Shown here: positions 4,530 through 62,151 of the stretch, piece by piece | Layout of the letters: each line of letters opens with the position of its first letter | Numbering within the stretch: position 1 is the first letter of the stretch | Source of the DNA: an uncultured Prevotellaceae bacterium | GTDB lineage: Bacteria; Bacteroidota; Bacteroidia; Bacteroidales; Muribaculaceae | Direction: 5' to 3' | Assembly: GCA_947165675.1 (NCBI GenBank) | Contig: CAMVBJ010000017.1 | Coordinates: 1 to 64,000 of the forward strand | DNA: 64,000 nt | Translations under genes and position numbers: made by a program | Notes under the pieces: generated by a model | Databases searched by the model: none | Told to the model about the DNA's origin: nothing | The model's input: only the letters and a program-made list of their open reading frames with translations

Positions 4530-4575
4530 TTCCTCAAAATCTTTGCTTGTTTTGAGCGCAAAATTAAGCCATTTT

Positions 4576-4661
4576 GGGTAAATCTCAAAATGTTTTTAGG
4601 TAAATCATGTAGAAATCTCACAATTTATTTCGTCAAATCCTGTAGAAATCTCGCAATGTTT
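4576..4661. repeat. Three iterons with 33-bp period, core AAATCTC
   Basis: The plus-strand core AAATCTC occurs at 4580, 4613 and 4646, exactly 33 bases apart. The two distal units are longer and better matched (TGTAGAAATCTCRCAATKT). The array lies immediately upstream of the DUF4143 gene, so it could be an operator for that gene or a site on which the protein acts. The same core, in a 34-bp array, lies upstream of the second DUF4143 gene. Confidence 0.8.
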
Positions 4662-4766
4662 GACATTGTATTACACCAGACCTTCAAATTAGGACTCCGG
4701 TTCGCACCTCCCAAAACCTTTAAAACCTCCCGAAGCCTAATTGACAGCGTTTTTCTGCAAGCCGAT

Positions 4767-55311: not shown

Positions 55312-55407
55312 CACCCTAAAGTGTGAAAATGCGGTATCATTAGCCGGGAATTGCAACTTTTCACCCTTTAGTGCGTGTCTCTATTGTACTTGGTCTCGAT
55401 AATTTTG
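55312..55407 (+). promoter_or_regulatory. Twin-site regulated promoter of the first barrel gene
   Basis: CACCCTAAAGTGTG (55312) and CACCCTTTAGTGCG (55362) are direct repeats spaced exactly 50 bases. TAATTTTG (55400-55407) lies 38 bases after the start of the second. The expected -33 position holds GTGTCT, not TTTG, so activation by a bound protein is likely. The same layout is found at 59707-59801. Confidence 0.75.
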
Positions 55408-55431
55408 CCATCGAACAACCAAAACAGAGAC

Positions 55432-57753
55432 ATGATTATGATCCAAAGATTAATTTCAATTATTCTAACTATCATAGCGGCACTCGCCGCTATGGCTGGT
55501 ACAATTACCGGTCGTGTACTGGACGAGAACCAAGTGCCGATGCCCTATGCCAACGTGGTGTTGATGAATCGCGTTGACTCGGCATTTGTGCAAGGTACGG
55601 TGACCGGCGAGGATGGTATATTTTCCCTAACGACCGATTGCGATGACTGCCTGTTGAAGATTTCCAGTGTGGGCTATGCCACCCGCTGGGTGGAAACGAA
55701 TGGCGCAAGTGCTGGCGACATCGTGATGCAGCCCGATGCCGCGTTGCTGGGCGAGGTGGTAGTGGAGGGGGAGCGCCCCGTCCACAAATTGGGTAGCGAG
55801 GGATTGCTCACGAGTGTTGAGGGCACCATTCTGAGCAAGCTGGGCACCGCCGAGGATGTGCTGCGCAACATCCCGGGCGTGCTGAAGAAGGACGGTGGCA
55901 AGCTGGAAGTCTTCGGCAAGGGCACACCGCTCATCTACATCAACAACCGCCTCATGCGTGATGCCAGCGAACTCAATGAGTTGAAATCACAAGACATCGT
56001 CAGCGTTGAGGTAATTACCAACCCTGGCGCAAAATATGATGCATCGGTGCAGAGTGTCATCCGCATCAAGACGCGCAAGGTGCAAGGCGAGGGATGGGGC
56101 GGACACCTGCGCAGCAGTTTCTATCAGGGCGAAATGTCGCGCACCTACAATGCCTTCCTCTGGAACTACCGCCACCATGGATTAGACATCTTTGGTACGG
56201 TCAGCGACTTTGAGAACGGCTGGTTGCAGAAGTACCGCATTACCCAGGACGTTGCAGCCGACACCATCTGGCATCAGGACAATCACGGCCGCAGCCAGGG
56301 TAATTACAACATCTTGCGTTTGGTTTTGGGAACCAATTACCAGTTCAATGACAAGCACTGGGTGGGCTTCCAATACACCAGCAGCATCAGGATCTATGAT
56401 AAGAGCACTGGCCGTTTTGTGGCCGACGTGCTGGCCGATGGCAATTTCTATGACCACCTCGAGACTAACAATGTGGAGGAAACGTCCCATAACATGCCAC
56501 ACTCGCTCAACATCTATTATAACGGCGAGGTGGGCAAGACCAGCATCGACTTTAATGCCGATTACTACTTCAACAAGACGCATGCACGCAACAGGGATGT
56601 TGAGGAAAGCCAGGAGTGGGACGACCGCTCGCTCCACAGCGTGAACAACGTGAGAAATGAACTCTTTGCCAGCAAACTCGTCCTCTCGTGGCCCCTGTGG
56701 AACGGCACGCTGACTGCGGGTGGTGAGGCCAACTACACCCACCGCAACGATGACTACTTCAACTCCTTCCACCTGGTGCCCAGCAGCGAAACCGAGGTCA
56801 AGGAGCAGAACTACAGCGTTTTTGTCGAGTATAGCCGCATGACGCCCATTGGGCAAGTTCGGGGAGGCTTGCGCGATGAGTATGTCAAAACTGGCTACTA
56901 CAGCCAGGGCGTCCTCATCGACGGCCAGAGCCGCCACTTCAACCACCTGTTTCCCAGCGTGTCGCTCTCGACCCGAGTGGGCAACGTCAAGGGGTTATTG
57001 AGTTATGCGATGAAGATACGCCGCCCCACCTACTTTGAGTTGAGCAACATGACCTACTATTCCAACCGATTTACCTGGCAGTCAGGCAACCCTTATCTGA
57101 AGCCCACGATTATCAACAACGTGTCACTCGACGCGACCTGGAAGTTCCTCTCGCTCAACGTGAGTTATTCCCACCTGCGAGACGTGGTCATGCAACTAGG
57201 CCGCCAGGTCGAGGGACACGAATCCACCACGCTCATCTATCAGGACAATATCGACAAGAAGGATGTCCTGAGTGCCAGCCTGACTGCTGCGCCACAATTT
57301 AGCCTCTGGCACCCGCAATTGACCCTCTCGGTCATGAAGGAATGGATGAGGATTCCCATGCCCACTGGCTATTACAGCCCCGAGCGACCCATCTGGAGTG
57401 CCCAGTGGAGCAACACCTTCAAGTTCTCGCCATCGTGGACAGGCTCGCTCTCCCTTGACTGGCAAGGAAAGGGAGACATTGAGAACATCAGCAGCCGTAG
57501 CCATCAATTTGACTTGTACATTGGCCTGACCAAGACATTCCTGGATGACCGTCTGTCGGTCAAGGTAGCAGGACATGACCTGTTTCACCGCAATGGTCAG
57601 GACGTACTGGTGCACTTCGGCGAATTGACCTTGTGGCAACACCGTACCAACGAGACCCGCTATGCCGAGGTGACCGTGCGCTACCACTTCAACTGGACGC
57701 GCAACAAGTACAAGGGCACTGGTGCCGGAAATAATGAGAAAAACAGACTATGA
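55432..57753 (+). CDS. Outer-membrane barrel protein, paralogue 1
   Basis: The start at 55432 (MIMIQRLISIILTIIAALAA) follows the promoter; the track's 55375 is upstream of it. This protein of about 773 residues has a signal peptide, a carboxypeptidase-regulatory-like domain (about 20-110) and a plug-like region (LRNIPGVLKKDGGKLEVFGK and PLIYINNRLMRDASELNEL). An OMP_b-brl barrel follows to the end. It closely resembles paralogue 2 at 59836 (same domain order, ends YKGTGAGNNEKNRL versus YKGTGAGSSEKERL). No STN domain is present, unlike the barrel at 27518. The ligand is unknown. Confidence 0.88.
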   Translation: MIMIQRLISIILTIIAALAAMAGTITGRVLDENQVPMPYANVVLMNRVDSAFVQGTVTGEDGIFSLTTDCDDCLLKISSVGYATRWVETNGASAGDIVMQPDAALLGEVVVEGERPVHKLGSEGLLTSVEGTILSKLGTAEDVLRNIPGVLKKDGGKLEVFGKGTPLIYINNRLMRDASELNELKSQDIVSVEVITNPGAKYDASVQSVIRIKTRKVQGEGWGGHLRSSFYQGEMSRTYNAFLWNYRHHGLDIFGTVSDFENGWLQKYRITQDVAADTIWHQDNHGRSQGNYNILRLVLGTNYQFNDKHWVGFQYTSSIRIYDKSTGRFVADVLADGNFYDHLETNNVEETSHNMPHSLNIYYNGEVGKTSIDFNADYYFNKTHARNRDVEESQEWDDRSLHSVNNVRNELFASKLVLSWPLWNGTLTAGGEANYTHRNDDYFNSFHLVPSSETEVKEQNYSVFVEYSRMTPIGQVRGGLRDEYVKTGYYSQGVLIDGQSRHFNHLFPSVSLSTRVGNVKGLLSYAMKIRRPTYFELSNMTYYSNRFTWQSGNPYLKPTIINNVSLDATWKFLSLNVSYSHLRDVVMQLGRQVEGHESTTLIYQDNIDKKDVLSASLTAAPQFSLWHPQLTLSVMKEWMRIPMPTGYYSPERPIWSAQWSNTFKFSPSWTGSLSLDWQGKGDIENISSRSHQFDLYIGLTKTFLDDRLSVKVAGHDLFHRNGQDVLVHFGELTLWQHRTNETRYAEVTVRYHFNWTRNKYKGTGAGNNEKNRL

Positions 57754-58094: not shown

Positions 58095-58130
58095 ATAGTG
58101 ATGTTTTATTAATAATAGTTTCTTTTTACT

Positions 58131-58165
58131 GCTCCGTAACGCCTTAAAAAAACGGGTTACGGAGC
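58131..58165. repeat. Palindrome GCTCCGTAAC, copy A, downstream of DUF4143 locus 2
   Basis: GCTCCGTAAC and GTTACGGAGC form a perfect 10-bp stem around CGCCTTAAAAAAACG. It could terminate the barrel operon. A mutated copy lies at 59662-59694, so the two bracket the ATPase gene as the GC-rich repeats do at locus 1. Confidence 0.8.
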
Positions 58166-58180
58166 ACTATTTTTCTGATT

Positions 58181-59530
58181 CTACAATAAGGGTGTCATGT
58201 AAAGAGGAAGATAGGTTACACCATCCTCTACTTTATAGTCGGCTGCATGAAGCAAAGTAGGAGTAGCCACGTATTCACCAAACTTGTTCATACACTTCGT
58301 TAAGGACGATAACGTGTAGTTCTTGCCGCTTTTGACTTCTATTGGACGGATATTGTGGCGGCTGGTCACTTTGTCCTTTTGAAGCAAGAAGTCGATTTCC
58401 ATACGCTCTTCAGCTTTCTCTGATGACTTACTATAGAAAAAGAGCTTGTTGCCGCTGGCTATCAGCATTTGAGCCACGATATTCTCAATGAGCATTCCCT
58501 CGTTCACCTCCAGCTTACCAAAGAGCAGCTTCTGGTAAACCTCAGACGAAACAATGCCCTTTTCATCGAATGCATGACTGATCAACAAGCCCGTATCGTT
58601 CATGTAACACTTCATTGTCGTGCGGTCTTCGTTCATCTTCAACCCTATATTTGGCTCAGTCGAATTGTAGCAGATGTTGACAACTCTTGCGTCCTTCAGC
58701 CAGAAGAACGCATCGTCCCAGTCGCGATATTTCGCACCAGGCTTGAGGGCCGACAACCGAAACTTCTTTTCATGCTTGGATAGTTGAGGAGGAATCTGGT
58801 CGAAGATTGACACAACCTTGTCGGCTATCTCACCTGCATAATTAAAGATGTCATTACGATAGATAGTCAACACATCACGCTTTGCAGCATCTACAGCATC
58901 AAAGTCCTTAGTCTCAACGTACTTCTTGACTGCTTGAGGCATTCCGCCCACTATCATATAGAGCCGGAAAGCATCCATAGCCCGACGATGGAAAGTCTGC
59001 CCCATTGGCTTATGCTCTGCATACATCTTCCGTATCAAGTCCATCAGCATGTCGTTTCCTGTAGCCCAAAGGAACTCTTCAAAGTCCATCGGGTACATTT
59101 GTATAGAACGCTCTTCTGATGGGAGCACGATGCCCTGTGTATTTTTCCTGATGCTCACCAGCGAGCCAGTCTCAATATAGTCATATCGACCATCAGCCAC
59201 CAGAAACTTGATGGCTGCTCTCGCCCTGGGACATAACTGTATCTCGTCGAGGATGATTAGCGATTTGCGTTCATGGAGTCTCACCTTGTAGTGCTGACTC
59301 AGATAGAGGAAAAGCGTATCGAGGTCTTCCAGATACAGGTCAAACCAGTCTCTGACCATCTGGGGAGCCTTATTGAAGTCGATGAGGATATATGACTCGT
59401 ACTCATTCTTGCCAAACTCCTCTACGATATAACTCTTTCCGATGCGCCGAGCGCCCTCTACGAGTAGTGCTACTTCACCGTTTCTTTTCTCCTTCCAGTC
59501 AAGGAGTTGCTGATAAATTTTACGTTTCAT
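58181..59530 (-). CDS. AAA_14 / DUF4143 family ATPase (locus 2)
   Basis: The start MKRKIYQQLLDWKEKR at 59530 matches the KRKLYEQML region of the locus 1 protein; the track start (59569) adds 13 residues from the repeat region. About 449 residues: P-loop GARRIGKSYIVEEFG (about 26), Walker B LIILDEIQLC (about 93), and a C-terminal DUF4143 part with EIDFLLQKD and IRPIEVKSG, again giving a D-x(n)-ExK pattern. The gene is on the minus strand, between the plus-strand barrel paralogues. It therefore interrupts their tandem arrangement. The two DUF4143 proteins are related but well diverged, so this is not a recent local duplication. Confidence 0.88.
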   Translation of the reverse strand: MKRKIYQQLLDWKEKRNGEVALLVEGARRIGKSYIVEEFGKNEYESYILIDFNKAPQMVRDWFDLYLEDLDTLFLYLSQHYKVRLHERKSLIILDEIQLCPRARAAIKFLVADGRYDYIETGSLVSIRKNTQGIVLPSEERSIQMYPMDFEEFLWATGNDMLMDLIRKMYAEHKPMGQTFHRRAMDAFRLYMIVGGMPQAVKKYVETKDFDAVDAAKRDVLTIYRNDIFNYAGEIADKVVSIFDQIPPQLSKHEKKFRLSALKPGAKYRDWDDAFFWLKDARVVNICYNSTEPNIGLKMNEDRTTMKCYMNDTGLLISHAFDEKGIVSSEVYQKLLFGKLEVNEGMLIENIVAQMLIASGNKLFFYSKSSEKAEERMEIDFLLQKDKVTSRHNIRPIEVKSGKNYTLSSLTKCMNKFGEYVATPTLLHAADYKVEDGVTYLPLYMTPLL

Positions 59531-59546
59531 AACGATACCTTCTGTA

Positions 59547-59632
59547 CCTTTTTGAGATTTCTGTTCCAATATATTTTACACCTTTTTGAGATTTTTTGAC
59601 GATGCAAATATACACCTTTTTGAGATTTCTCG
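59547..59632. repeat. Three iterons with 34-bp period, core GAGATTT
   Basis: The plus-strand core GAGATTT occurs at 59554, 59588 and 59622, exactly 34 bases apart, in the context ACCTTTTTGAGATTTCT. The array abuts the ATPase start. The core is the complement of the AAATCTC core at locus 1, so relative to the gene the array is inverted between the two loci. Confidence 0.85.
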
Positions 59633-59661
59633 CAACAAGATTGCTATTTTATGTTTTTGCT

Positions 59662-59694
59662 CCTCCGTAACGGCAAAAAAATGGGATTACGGAT
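59662..59694. repeat. Palindrome CTCCGTAACG, copy B, upstream of DUF4143 locus 2
   Basis: CTCCGTAACGGC, AAAAAAATGGG and ATTACGGATC align with copy A at 58131-58165 with small changes. It lies 1,531 bases from copy A, directly before the promoter region of barrel paralogue 2. Confidence 0.75.
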
Positions 59695-59835: not shown

Positions 59836-62151
59836 ATGACAATGAAACGAAACCTTTTCACTCTGATGATGGCAATACTGGTCGCGATAACGACCGTTGC
59901 CCAAACGTTTAGGGGCTGTGTGGTCGATGAGAAGCAGGCCCCGATCCCCTTCGCTAATGTGGTACTGCTCAATGCCAGTGACAGCGCCTTTGTGGCTGGT
60001 ACGACGACCGACACCGATGGCCGATTCACCCTCATGAGTAGCACAGCCAATCCATTGGTTAAAATTTCCTATCTTGGTTACAAAACGCGAGTGCTTATGA
60101 CCACGGGCATTGACCTGGGCACCATTGTGCTGGAACCCGAGGTGACTGAGTTGGGCGAGGTCGTTATCAAGGCACAGCGTCCCGCCTTTAAGCTGACGGC
60201 CGAGGGCCTCAAGACCGAGGTGGAGAACACCCTGCTGAGCAAAGTGGGTACCGCCAAGGCTGTGCTCGAGAACCTGCCTGGCGTGCAGCGCAAGAAGGAT
60301 GGCCTGGAGGTCTTCGGCAAGGGCACACCGCTCATCTATATCAACGGTCGGAAACTGCAGAACCAGACGGAACTGGACCAACTCAGCAGCGAGGACATCC
60401 AGAGCGTGGAACTAATCACCAGCCCGGGTGCCAAGTATGACGCCACGGTCGAGTCGGTCATCTTGATCAAGACCAAGCGGCCTCAGGGCGAGGGCTTCAG
60501 CTTCAATACCCAGGCGAGCTACTATGTGGGCAAGGGTCCCGACTTGGCACTGGGTCTGAACTGGAACTACCGCCACAAGGGGTTGGACGTGTTTGGCAGC
60601 GTTTGGTACAACGATAACCGGAACATCGAGGACGACGACTTCACCTTTGATGTGCAGGCCGACACCGTGTGGCGTCTGAATGAGCATTCCGACATCAAGA
60701 GCCACTTCAACTCGATTTACACCTCAGCGGGCGTGAACTACATCTTCAACGACCGGCACTCAATGGGGTTCAGGTATGACACCAAGGCTTATTTCCTGCA
60801 ACGCACCCGCGGCTCCTTCACCGCCGACGTGATGGCCAATGGCGCTTTCTATGACCACCTGGACAACAAGATACACATGTCCACTAAGTCCAATATGCCT
60901 CACACGCTCAATGTGTATTACAACGGCAAGGTGGGCAGCACCTCAATCGACTTCAACACCGATTACGTCTTCTACAAGGACCGAAAGAGACAGCTCAACG
61001 ACGAGGTGAGCCAGCAGCAGGAAAGCCGCACGGTGACCAGCACCAGCATCGTGCGCAACCAGCTATGGGCAGCCAAGCTCGTCCTCTCGTGGTCGCTCTG
61101 GGGTGGCAACCTGCAAGTGGGCACCGAGTATGACCACACGCGCCGCAACGACGACTATATCAACCCCGAGCAGGTCGTCCCCACGTCCTACACAGAGCAG
61201 AAGGAGCGCAATTACATCTTCTTTGCCGAGTATGCCCATCCGTTGCCCTTCGGCCAGTTGAGGGTGGGGGTGCGCAACGAGAACGTCTCCAGCAACTACT
61301 ACAGCCAGGGCAAGCTCATGGCCGAGCAGAGCCGCAACTACCACCATTTCTTCCCCAGTGTGGGGCTGATGGCGCGGGCAGGCAATGTGCAACTCATGCT
61401 GAACTATGCAATGAAGATCAAGCGTCCCAGCTACTGGCAACTGCGTGGCAGCGTCACCTATGCCAACCGCTTCACCTGGGACAGCGGCAATCCTCTGCTC
61501 AAGCCCACCATCAACAACGAGGTGTCGTTCATGGCGATGTTCAAGTGGGTGAATCTGATGGTGGGCTACAAGCATGACCGCGACGTGATCGTCAATGTAG
61601 CACATGAGATACCAGGCAGCGAGGCCACCACGCTGATGAGCAATGAGAATGTGGATCATGAGGATGCCATGCGCGTGATGCTCACGCTCTCGCCTCGATG
61701 GGATTTCTATCAGCCGTCACTCACCTTGGGCATGATCAAGGATTGGATCAAGATTCCTTCACCCATTGGCTTCATCTCACCCAAGAGCCCCATCTACCTC
61801 GTGCAGTTCAACAACAATTTCCAGATTCTACCGACCCTGACAGCCAATGTCAATTTTGATTTCACGAGCCGTGGCACCATGCAGAACGTCACACTTACAA
61901 AACCAATCTATCGACTCAACATTGGAGCCACCAAGACATTCTTGAACGACCGCCTGTCCGTCAGTATAACTGGTTACAACCTACTCAATGCCCAAGAAAA
62001 CGTTAAGTTGCAATACGGCCTGCGCACCATGTGGCACAGCCAGCACCGCGACACTCGCGAGGTGGAGTTCACAGTGCGCTACAAGTTCAATGCCGCCCAG
62101 AGCAAGTACAAGGGCACCGGCGCAGGCAGCAGCGAGAAAGAACGCCTGTAA
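59836..62151 (+). CDS. Outer-membrane barrel protein, paralogue 2
   Basis: This 771-residue protein has a signal peptide (MAILVAITTVAQ), a carboxypeptidase-regulatory-like domain (about 22-110), a plug-like region (ENLPGVQRKKDGLEVFGKGT) and an OMP_b-brl barrel. It is a paralogue of the protein at 55432, with the same length, the same ending (YKGTGAGSSEKERL) and the same upstream sites. A DUF4143 ATPase unit lies between the two genes. It has no downstream partner gene; after its stop there are about 130 bases without a gene before the tRNA-Asp promoter. Confidence 0.88.
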   Translation: MTMKRNLFTLMMAILVAITTVAQTFRGCVVDEKQAPIPFANVVLLNASDSAFVAGTTTDTDGRFTLMSSTANPLVKISYLGYKTRVLMTTGIDLGTIVLEPEVTELGEVVIKAQRPAFKLTAEGLKTEVENTLLSKVGTAKAVLENLPGVQRKKDGLEVFGKGTPLIYINGRKLQNQTELDQLSSEDIQSVELITSPGAKYDATVESVILIKTKRPQGEGFSFNTQASYYVGKGPDLALGLNWNYRHKGLDVFGSVWYNDNRNIEDDDFTFDVQADTVWRLNEHSDIKSHFNSIYTSAGVNYIFNDRHSMGFRYDTKAYFLQRTRGSFTADVMANGAFYDHLDNKIHMSTKSNMPHTLNVYYNGKVGSTSIDFNTDYVFYKDRKRQLNDEVSQQQESRTVTSTSIVRNQLWAAKLVLSWSLWGGNLQVGTEYDHTRRNDDYINPEQVVPTSYTEQKERNYIFFAEYAHPLPFGQLRVGVRNENVSSNYYSQGKLMAEQSRNYHHFFPSVGLMARAGNVQLMLNYAMKIKRPSYWQLRGSVTYANRFTWDSGNPLLKPTINNEVSFMAMFKWVNLMVGYKHDRDVIVNVAHEIPGSEATTLMSNENVDHEDAMRVMLTLSPRWDFYQPSLTLGMIKDWIKIPSPIGFISPKSPIYLVQFNNNFQILPTLTANVNFDFTSRGTMQNVTLTKPIYRLNIGATKTFLNDRLSVSITGYNLLNAQENVKLQYGLRTMWHSQHRDTREVEFTVRYKFNAAQSKYKGTGAGSSEKERL

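Follow-up and report, generated by a model that had tools for sequence, protein, structure and literature searches.

Proteins in which an ATPase is fused to a PD-(D/E)XK domain, listed as PDC-S01, rank fourth in frequency among defence calls in prokaryotes, with the status of an unvalidated candidate and about 39,000 copies detected in one survey (PMC12988326). In rumen genomes, AAA_14-DUF4143 (PDC-S01) is the most frequent single defence locus (PMC13356809). The family ranks with the most abundant of all uncharacterised gene families. The open-access literature on DUF4143 and PDC-S01 gave us no description of arrays upstream of the genes, of self-recognition or of a specificity for DNA sequence; the single paper, out of 5.39 million, that mentions DUF4143 by name is silent on repeats.

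Further described systems resemble the loci studied here in part. Autoregulated repressors with tandem operators include phage CI, the antitoxins of toxin-antitoxin systems and plasmid Rep proteins on iterons. DUF4143 loci share with them several phased sites over the gene's own promoter and a private operator per paralogue, by which cross-talk would be avoided; they differ in that the putative base-reading loop lies in a catalytically intact PD-(D/E)XK domain fused to an AAA+ ATPase. Orc1/Cdc6 and other initiators which combine AAA+ and winged-helix (wHTH) domains at origin repeats are similar in fold, in the order AAA+ then wHTH and in the use of several recognition sites, whereas DUF4143 proteins add a nuclease-fold domain and have their sites at their own promoter, one set per paralogue. 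DUF4143 genes are single chromosomal genes, 15 of them in the home genome of the window, and no replicon or nearby replication genes were noticed in a non-systematic look. MuB and other AAA+ DNA filaments likewise give a fold match (8xvb) and form cooperative oligomers on DNA. MuB binds DNA with little sequence specificity, whereas the DUF4143 sites are sequence-specific and directional.

Here we describe tandem arrays upstream of DUF4143 genes, which we consider likely to be operators that are directional, private to one gene and recognised by the product of that adjacent gene, which would thus regulate its own expression. Such operators would supply the family with a predicted DNA ligand and a simple binding test, and the recognition code derived from covariation can be checked by single-residue, single-base swaps. 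Moreover, the arrays let paralogues be matched to their own sites and offer a case of insulation among many paralogous DNA-binding proteins within one cell.

Results and Discussion

The window, i.e. the whole analysed stretch of 64,000 nucleotides, contains two AAA_14-DUF4143 genes on the minus strand, L013 (58181-59530) and L014 (3180-4529), each encoding a protein of 449 amino acids; the two products share 42% identity. Both show AAA_14 and DUF4143 above the curated Pfam cut-offs (1.4e-22 and 5.5e-21 for L013) and match the PADLOC profile PDC-S01 (Pfam AAA_14-DUF4143; COG1373; AAA ATPase plus PD-(D/E)XK) over its full length (8.9e-114 for L013, 5.5e-96 for L014), whereas no arrays or DNA specificity were found in the open-access descriptions of PDC-S01. 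As a preceding sequence-only reading of this DNA had claimed, three repeat units with a period of 33-34 bp lie upstream of each gene. The L013 array (59543-59628, spacing 34/34 bp) consists, on the minus strand, of two units AAATCTCAAAAAGGTGTA (59611-59628 and 59577-59594, each scoring 17.9 nats with the family weight matrix) and a third unit, AAATCTCAAAAAGGTACA, ending in GTACA (59543-59560, 12.8 nats). In the L014 array (4575-4660, spacing 33/33 bp), the units called on the minus strand are AACATTGCGAGATTTCTACA (4641-4660), TAAATTGTGAGATTTCTACA (4608-4627) and AACATTTTGAGATTTACCCA (4575-4594). Read in gene direction, the L013 unit is AAATCTCAAAAAGGTGTA and the L014 unit is of the type AACATTGTGAGATTTCTACA.

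That reading had also proposed a common core, placed in opposite orientations relative to the two genes, and had argued from a conserved core with free orientation for a recognition site. GAGATTT is indeed present in all six units, but the 9-mer GAGATTTCT in only four of them (4611-4619, 4644-4652, 59554-59562 and 59622-59630), the other two having GAGATTTAC (4578-4586) and GAGATTTTT. For the raw 9-mer the reversal is correct: the gene strand carries it at 4.6 kb, the other strand at 59.5 kb. It does not, however, reflect a shared element of free orientation. The units of L013 and L014 each match those of their own relatives in the same orientation. Across 4,560 array pairs, same-strand unit similarity climbs with protein identity, from 0.476 between unrelated proteins through 0.58 (50-60% identity) to 0.90 (above 90%), while opposite-strand similarity is flat at about 0.475 at every protein identity. 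With the L013-family weight matrix AAATCTTGAAAAGGTGTA, 231 matches in gene orientation and 1 on the other strand were found in the 230 bp upstream of the relatives' genes; thus unit orientation is fixed within the subfamily. The match density is 9.1 per kb in the gene-oriented upstream 230 bp and at most 0.15 per kb elsewhere. Together, the flat opposite-strand similarity and the 231 to 1 ratio lead us to reject the idea of a freely oriented common core: each gene has its private core, in a fixed orientation.

One could nevertheless regard GAGATTTCT as a true common site of both window arrays, usable in either orientation, as the 9-mer is enriched in the window (5 matches versus 0.4 expected) and the opposite-strand score of the L013/L014 pair, 0.698, lies at about the 99.9th percentile; at least nine bases are common in opposite orientation in 17 of 3,846 comparable array pairs. 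We give this explanation practically no credence. An opposite-strand signal sought in the 523 pairs at 40-50% protein identity was absent (0.475, i.e. background), and relatives of both genes keep their arrays yet lose the 9-mer, which refutes the common site as a general rule. Neither the L013 relatives' units AACCTCCGTTTGGTGTA, AACCTTGATTTGGTGTA and AATCTAAGAAATGTG nor the L014 relatives' units TTTTGAGATTTCGGTA, TTTTGCGGAAACGG and TGGGATTTTGGAATATTT show the opposite-strand likeness of the window pair. The likeness of the two window arrays in GAGATTTCT is an uncommon coincidence, repeated in neither subfamily.

Across the family, an array was called stringent when all three copies agreed at 10 or more of 14 positions. 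By this measure, 45 of 104 DUF4143 genes (21 genomes) have an array no further than 160 bp from the start, as do 5 of 87 control upstreams, namely the L013 locus itself, one DUF4143 fragment, two neighbouring ORFs on the far side of a DUF4143 array and one unrelated gene. An origin of the arrays as a chance product of AT-rich DNA is rejected by shuffles and by these controls. In a larger set of 222 distinct DUF4143 genes, a stringent array of three units is present at 129; the mean period is either 22-23 bp (32 genes) or 31.5-34 bp (97 genes), with none in between. The period is conserved across relatives, as the sequence-only reading had wished to see checked, and follows the subfamily: 30 of 34 L008 relatives have arrays, all with 23 bp. 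In some subfamilies there are only two units, or palindromes, or no array at all.

Of the 15 DUF4143 genes of the home genome, ten have a stringent array of three units and one more (L009) comes close. The units differ between paralogues (e.g. ATTCCCGAAAAAACATGAATT, CCTTGGATTTTGTC, TTGGAAAAGTGTA, GGAAAAAGTCCC and TTTTGTGCAATCAATTGA), and a pattern search at one mismatch found the L013 unit in this genome in its own array only. In 96 arrays, identity between units is 0.93 in the 14-nt core and 0.50 in the spacer, a contrast that is partly built in, as the core was picked for likeness between units. Cores differ widely from gene to gene, yet are alike within an array; a relative with AAATCTCAAAAACGTG, for example, has this alteration in each of its upstream units. 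Such concerted change points to one changing reader, since recent tandem duplication alone would not leave that pattern. As separate observations, subfamilies that lack direct-repeat arrays apparently have short promoter palindromes instead (upstream regions of L018-L024, L077 and L102; e.g. around AAAGTACTACTTTAC and TTATGCAATAAG), and at the L013 relative L108 (G057:C24, about 6291, downstream region) array units are repeated on either side of the gene, together with a hairpin, AAAGGGGACAGTCCCCT.

The Bacteroidota -7 box motif TAnnTTTG occurs within 230 bp upstream of 214 of 222 DUF4143 genes (about 26 expected). In 102 of the 127 arrays with a -7 box, the array spans the box, follows it or is located no more than 40 bp upstream of it. 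At L013, the box TATATTTG (59605-59612, minus strand) overlaps the end of array unit 1, and units 2 and 3 are located between the box and the start codon; at L014, the box TAATTTTG (4559-4566, minus strand) lies directly downstream of the array. DUF4143 genes thus have tandem sites at their own promoter, and the earlier statement that the array is not a simple promoter element needs rewording: the units lie on or beside the gene's own promoter, as expected of an operator. An RNA element was rejected, as 77 of 127 arrays are located upstream of the -7 box and would therefore not be transcribed from that box. The end of a mobile element was rejected because the sites are one-sided, with 231 L013-family units in the 230 bp upstream and 3 in the 230 bp downstream.

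To evaluate which protein reads the arrays, operator and protein divergence were compared. The two are correlated in two subfamilies (Mantel r = 0.525 for 72 genes and 0.632 for 30 genes, 0 of 2000 permutations reaching these values, whereby the permutations ignore phylogeny), and the correlation holds in the same orientation only. When overall identity is removed in a partial Mantel test, the L013 family shows a peak at amino acids 241-282 (0 of 200 permutations), which corresponds to the wHTH of the AlphaFold model and drops to second place when the set is restricted to relatives of at least 38%. The L008 family peaks at residues 253-267 (1 of 200 permutations), i.e. the third helix of the wHTH (252-265). 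In L013, this domain, delimited by AF2 secondary structure, comprises codons 233-310 (58601-58834, minus strand), and its variation tracks the operator. A base-by-base test on 85 L013 relatives revealed the strongest couplings in a loop of the PD-(D/E)XK domain (codons 368-372; 58415-58429, minus strand) just before the catalytic E378/D380. At residue 369, Tyr occurs with G at base 9 in 23 cases and Ser, Ala, Asn or Pro with A; at residue 371, Arg or Lys occurs with G at base 8 in 49 cases and Glu or Asp with A or C. Of 11,200 tests, these two residue-base couplings take the first three ranks. When the tree is built with residues 355-385 left out, 11 of 11 independent changes are concordant for Tyr369 and G at base 9, and 9 of 9 for Arg/Lys371 and G at base 8, with none opposed. 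The starred branches alone provide four independent pairs per coupling, all concordant and too few for significance. In the L014 family (83 genes), the top two couplings fall into the same loop (residues 374 and 369, z 7.7 and 6.3), the base being shifted relative to L013 and the alignment gapped at the loop. Residue-base pairs in the wHTH are weaker than the loop pairs. Single wHTH pairs at base 13 were suggestive by mutual information and on all branches and were rejected, their direction being inconsistent on supported branches.

Base changes in the repeat go along with changes of single amino acids, which makes it very probable that the protein reads its own promoter, and on the strength of this covariation we expect with high confidence that the encoded protein binds its own array directly. 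The same data argue firmly for base reading by the nuclease-fold loop, which would contact the central positions 8-9, and make the wHTH a probable reader of other bases. A separate host regulator could also be imagined to bind the arrays, the likeness to the protein tree reflecting shared ancestry only; a Mantel correlation alone is compatible with inheritance. This is hardly tenable, as the covariation is concentrated in DNA-binding-like segments, with the 11/11 and 9/9 co-changes following plausible chemistry (Arg/Lys with G), and the arrays persist across phyla. Moreover, such regulators would have to be many, because the paralogues of one genome carry different units. Thus, the recognition site proposed by the sequence-only reading is strongly supported as a protein site, by the conserved period, the concerted cores, the residue-base covariation and the occurrence in phyla with other promoter types, rather than by the argument originally given for it.

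Returning to direct reading by the adjacent gene's product, the protein would bind three (2-6) tandem sites at its own promoter, about 33 bp apart (23 bp in one subfamily), and an ATP-dependent oligomer, bound side by side, could occlude the promoter. The gene would be kept low until the DUF4143 protein is titrated or switched, and since each unit diverges along with its protein, many paralogues could share a cell free of cross-talk. Judged from geometry and promoter overlap, autorepression appears on balance to be the probable outcome of array binding. The bound array may instead give autoactivation or have a non-regulatory role, and several observations sit uneasily with the operator reading: array placement relative to the -7 box (upstream, spanning or downstream) is not constant, the nuclease motif is invariant although a pure repressor would not need it, and some subfamilies lack a three-unit array.

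The mean spacing in the L013 family, 33.3 bp, corresponds to 3.17 turns and places successive units 62 degrees past three turns; a spacing of 23 bp leaves 69 degrees. A six-fold AAA+ spiral on phased units would give 60 degrees per unit. Such a spiral is conjectural and agrees poorly with the 32-bp subfamilies, for which the value is 17 degrees.

The AAA_14-DUF4143 protein consists of an Orc/Cdc6-like AAA+ domain, a wHTH and a PD-(D/E)XK nuclease-fold domain. For L013 (AF2 model, pLDDT 85), the best PDB matches in a fold comparison are of the Orc1/Cdc6 type (1w5s, 2qby, 2v1u; E 4e-5 to 3e-4) with low TM-scores of about 0.25-0.3, and Apaf1 and MuB (8xvb) are also found with modest scores; a PDB sequence search and NCBIfam gave no match for the DUF4143 protein. 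The Walker A/B residues (K32, D95-E96) and the nuclease motif at codons 378-400 (58331-58399, minus strand; E378-x-D380 and E398-V-K400) are intact in L013 and invariant among 24 aligned relatives. The invariance of both ATPase and nuclease residues suggests that the protein probably does more than repress.

One way to account for this is that the array is chiefly a nuclease substrate: the protein would cut or nick either its own array or the corresponding array on DNA that enters the cell, as a means of self-recognition, of incompatibility or of homing by a single-gene element, with regulation being secondary. The position of the base-covarying residues within the nuclease-fold domain, just before E378/D380, the invariant nuclease and Walker motifs, the spread of gene and array over phyla and the existence of gene-less arrays would all agree with this. 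We consider it improbable, however, as the array persists on its own chromosome next to an intact gene, the units lie near the promoter, at one end of the gene instead of both, and for the two units scanned viral contigs have single 18-mer matches only and no arrays. Alternatively, the array could be an anchoring or sequestration platform which keeps the bound protein inactive at its own locus, whereby release through phage, ATP state or loss of the array would free a toxic nuclease, as in an addiction-like or abortive-infection device. PADLOC lists the family as a single-gene defence candidate, the active-site motifs are conserved and the AAA+ fold resembles switches of the Apaf1/NLR and Orc types. 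Yet the defence role of PDC-S01 is a candidate one with validation pending (PMC12988326), and gene-less arrays as well as array-less members occur, so that we regard this possibility as quite improbable. A broader proposal takes DUF4143 to be a fast-diversifying, sequence-reading nuclease module with a residue-base code, in which the ATP-driven AAA+ spiral of each paralogue on its own 33- or 23-bp iterons forms a tripwire, silent when array-bound and freeing an active nuclease as immunity upon disturbance. This may be so, but we think it unlikely.

Apart from Bacteroidota, L013 relatives with 33-34 bp arrays occur in the isolates Faecalicoccus acidiformans DSM 26963 and Bifidobacterium jacchi, so that array genes are found in Bacteroidota, Bacillota and Actinomycetota. 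MAGs add other phyla, with L013-type arrays in Lachnospiraceae, Clostridia, Spirochaetales, Kiritimatiellae, Alphaproteobacteria, Myxococcales and Flexilinea, the taxon labels being those of the depositors. In this survey, 62 of 77 loci of L013 relatives have a stringent array. The array travels with the gene, independent of any one promoter type. Co-occurrence, the other check that had been named beforehand, was likewise borne out: full arrays are found at DUF4143 genes, barring a small number of arrays without a gene, at least one of them with a truncated gene start. At this locus, L136 (1350-1800), ATGAAGCGAAAAATTTATCAGCAACTACTTGATTGA comes after four units and represents the initial codons of a lost L013-type gene, ending in a stop. 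Two units without a DUF4143 gene are seen at L135, at L151 and, in the home genome, at L207 (G000:C4:130187). These gene-less arrays look like relics. Viral decoy arrays were rejected, as viral contigs scanned with two units gave only single 18-mer matches to the units tried and no arrays.

A 24-nt element, GTCTACTTTSAAGGTCTGGTRCAA (4671-4684 in the window, minus strand), lies directly upstream of several DUF4143 arrays from different subfamilies in gene orientation, as holds for 11 of its 15 matches in 101 genomes (loci L007, L009, L011, L106 and L234-L248). The element forms the right end of an IS3-type insertion sequence in L236 and L243, probably also in L246, and was rejected on this ground as a part of the array system; the subterminal repeats of this insertion sequence have a period of 42 bp.

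With respect to the surroundings of L013, two paralogous OMP_b-brl_3 outer-membrane proteins with similar upstream regions lie on either side of the gene (55375-57753 and 59836-62151), and L013 seems to be located within a tandem duplication. A hairpin repeat, CTCCGTAAC...GTTACGGAG, flanks the L013 gene and its array on both sides (58123-58184 and 59644-59693), and the same hairpin is present in several upstream copies at the L013 orthologue of genome G036 (L106).
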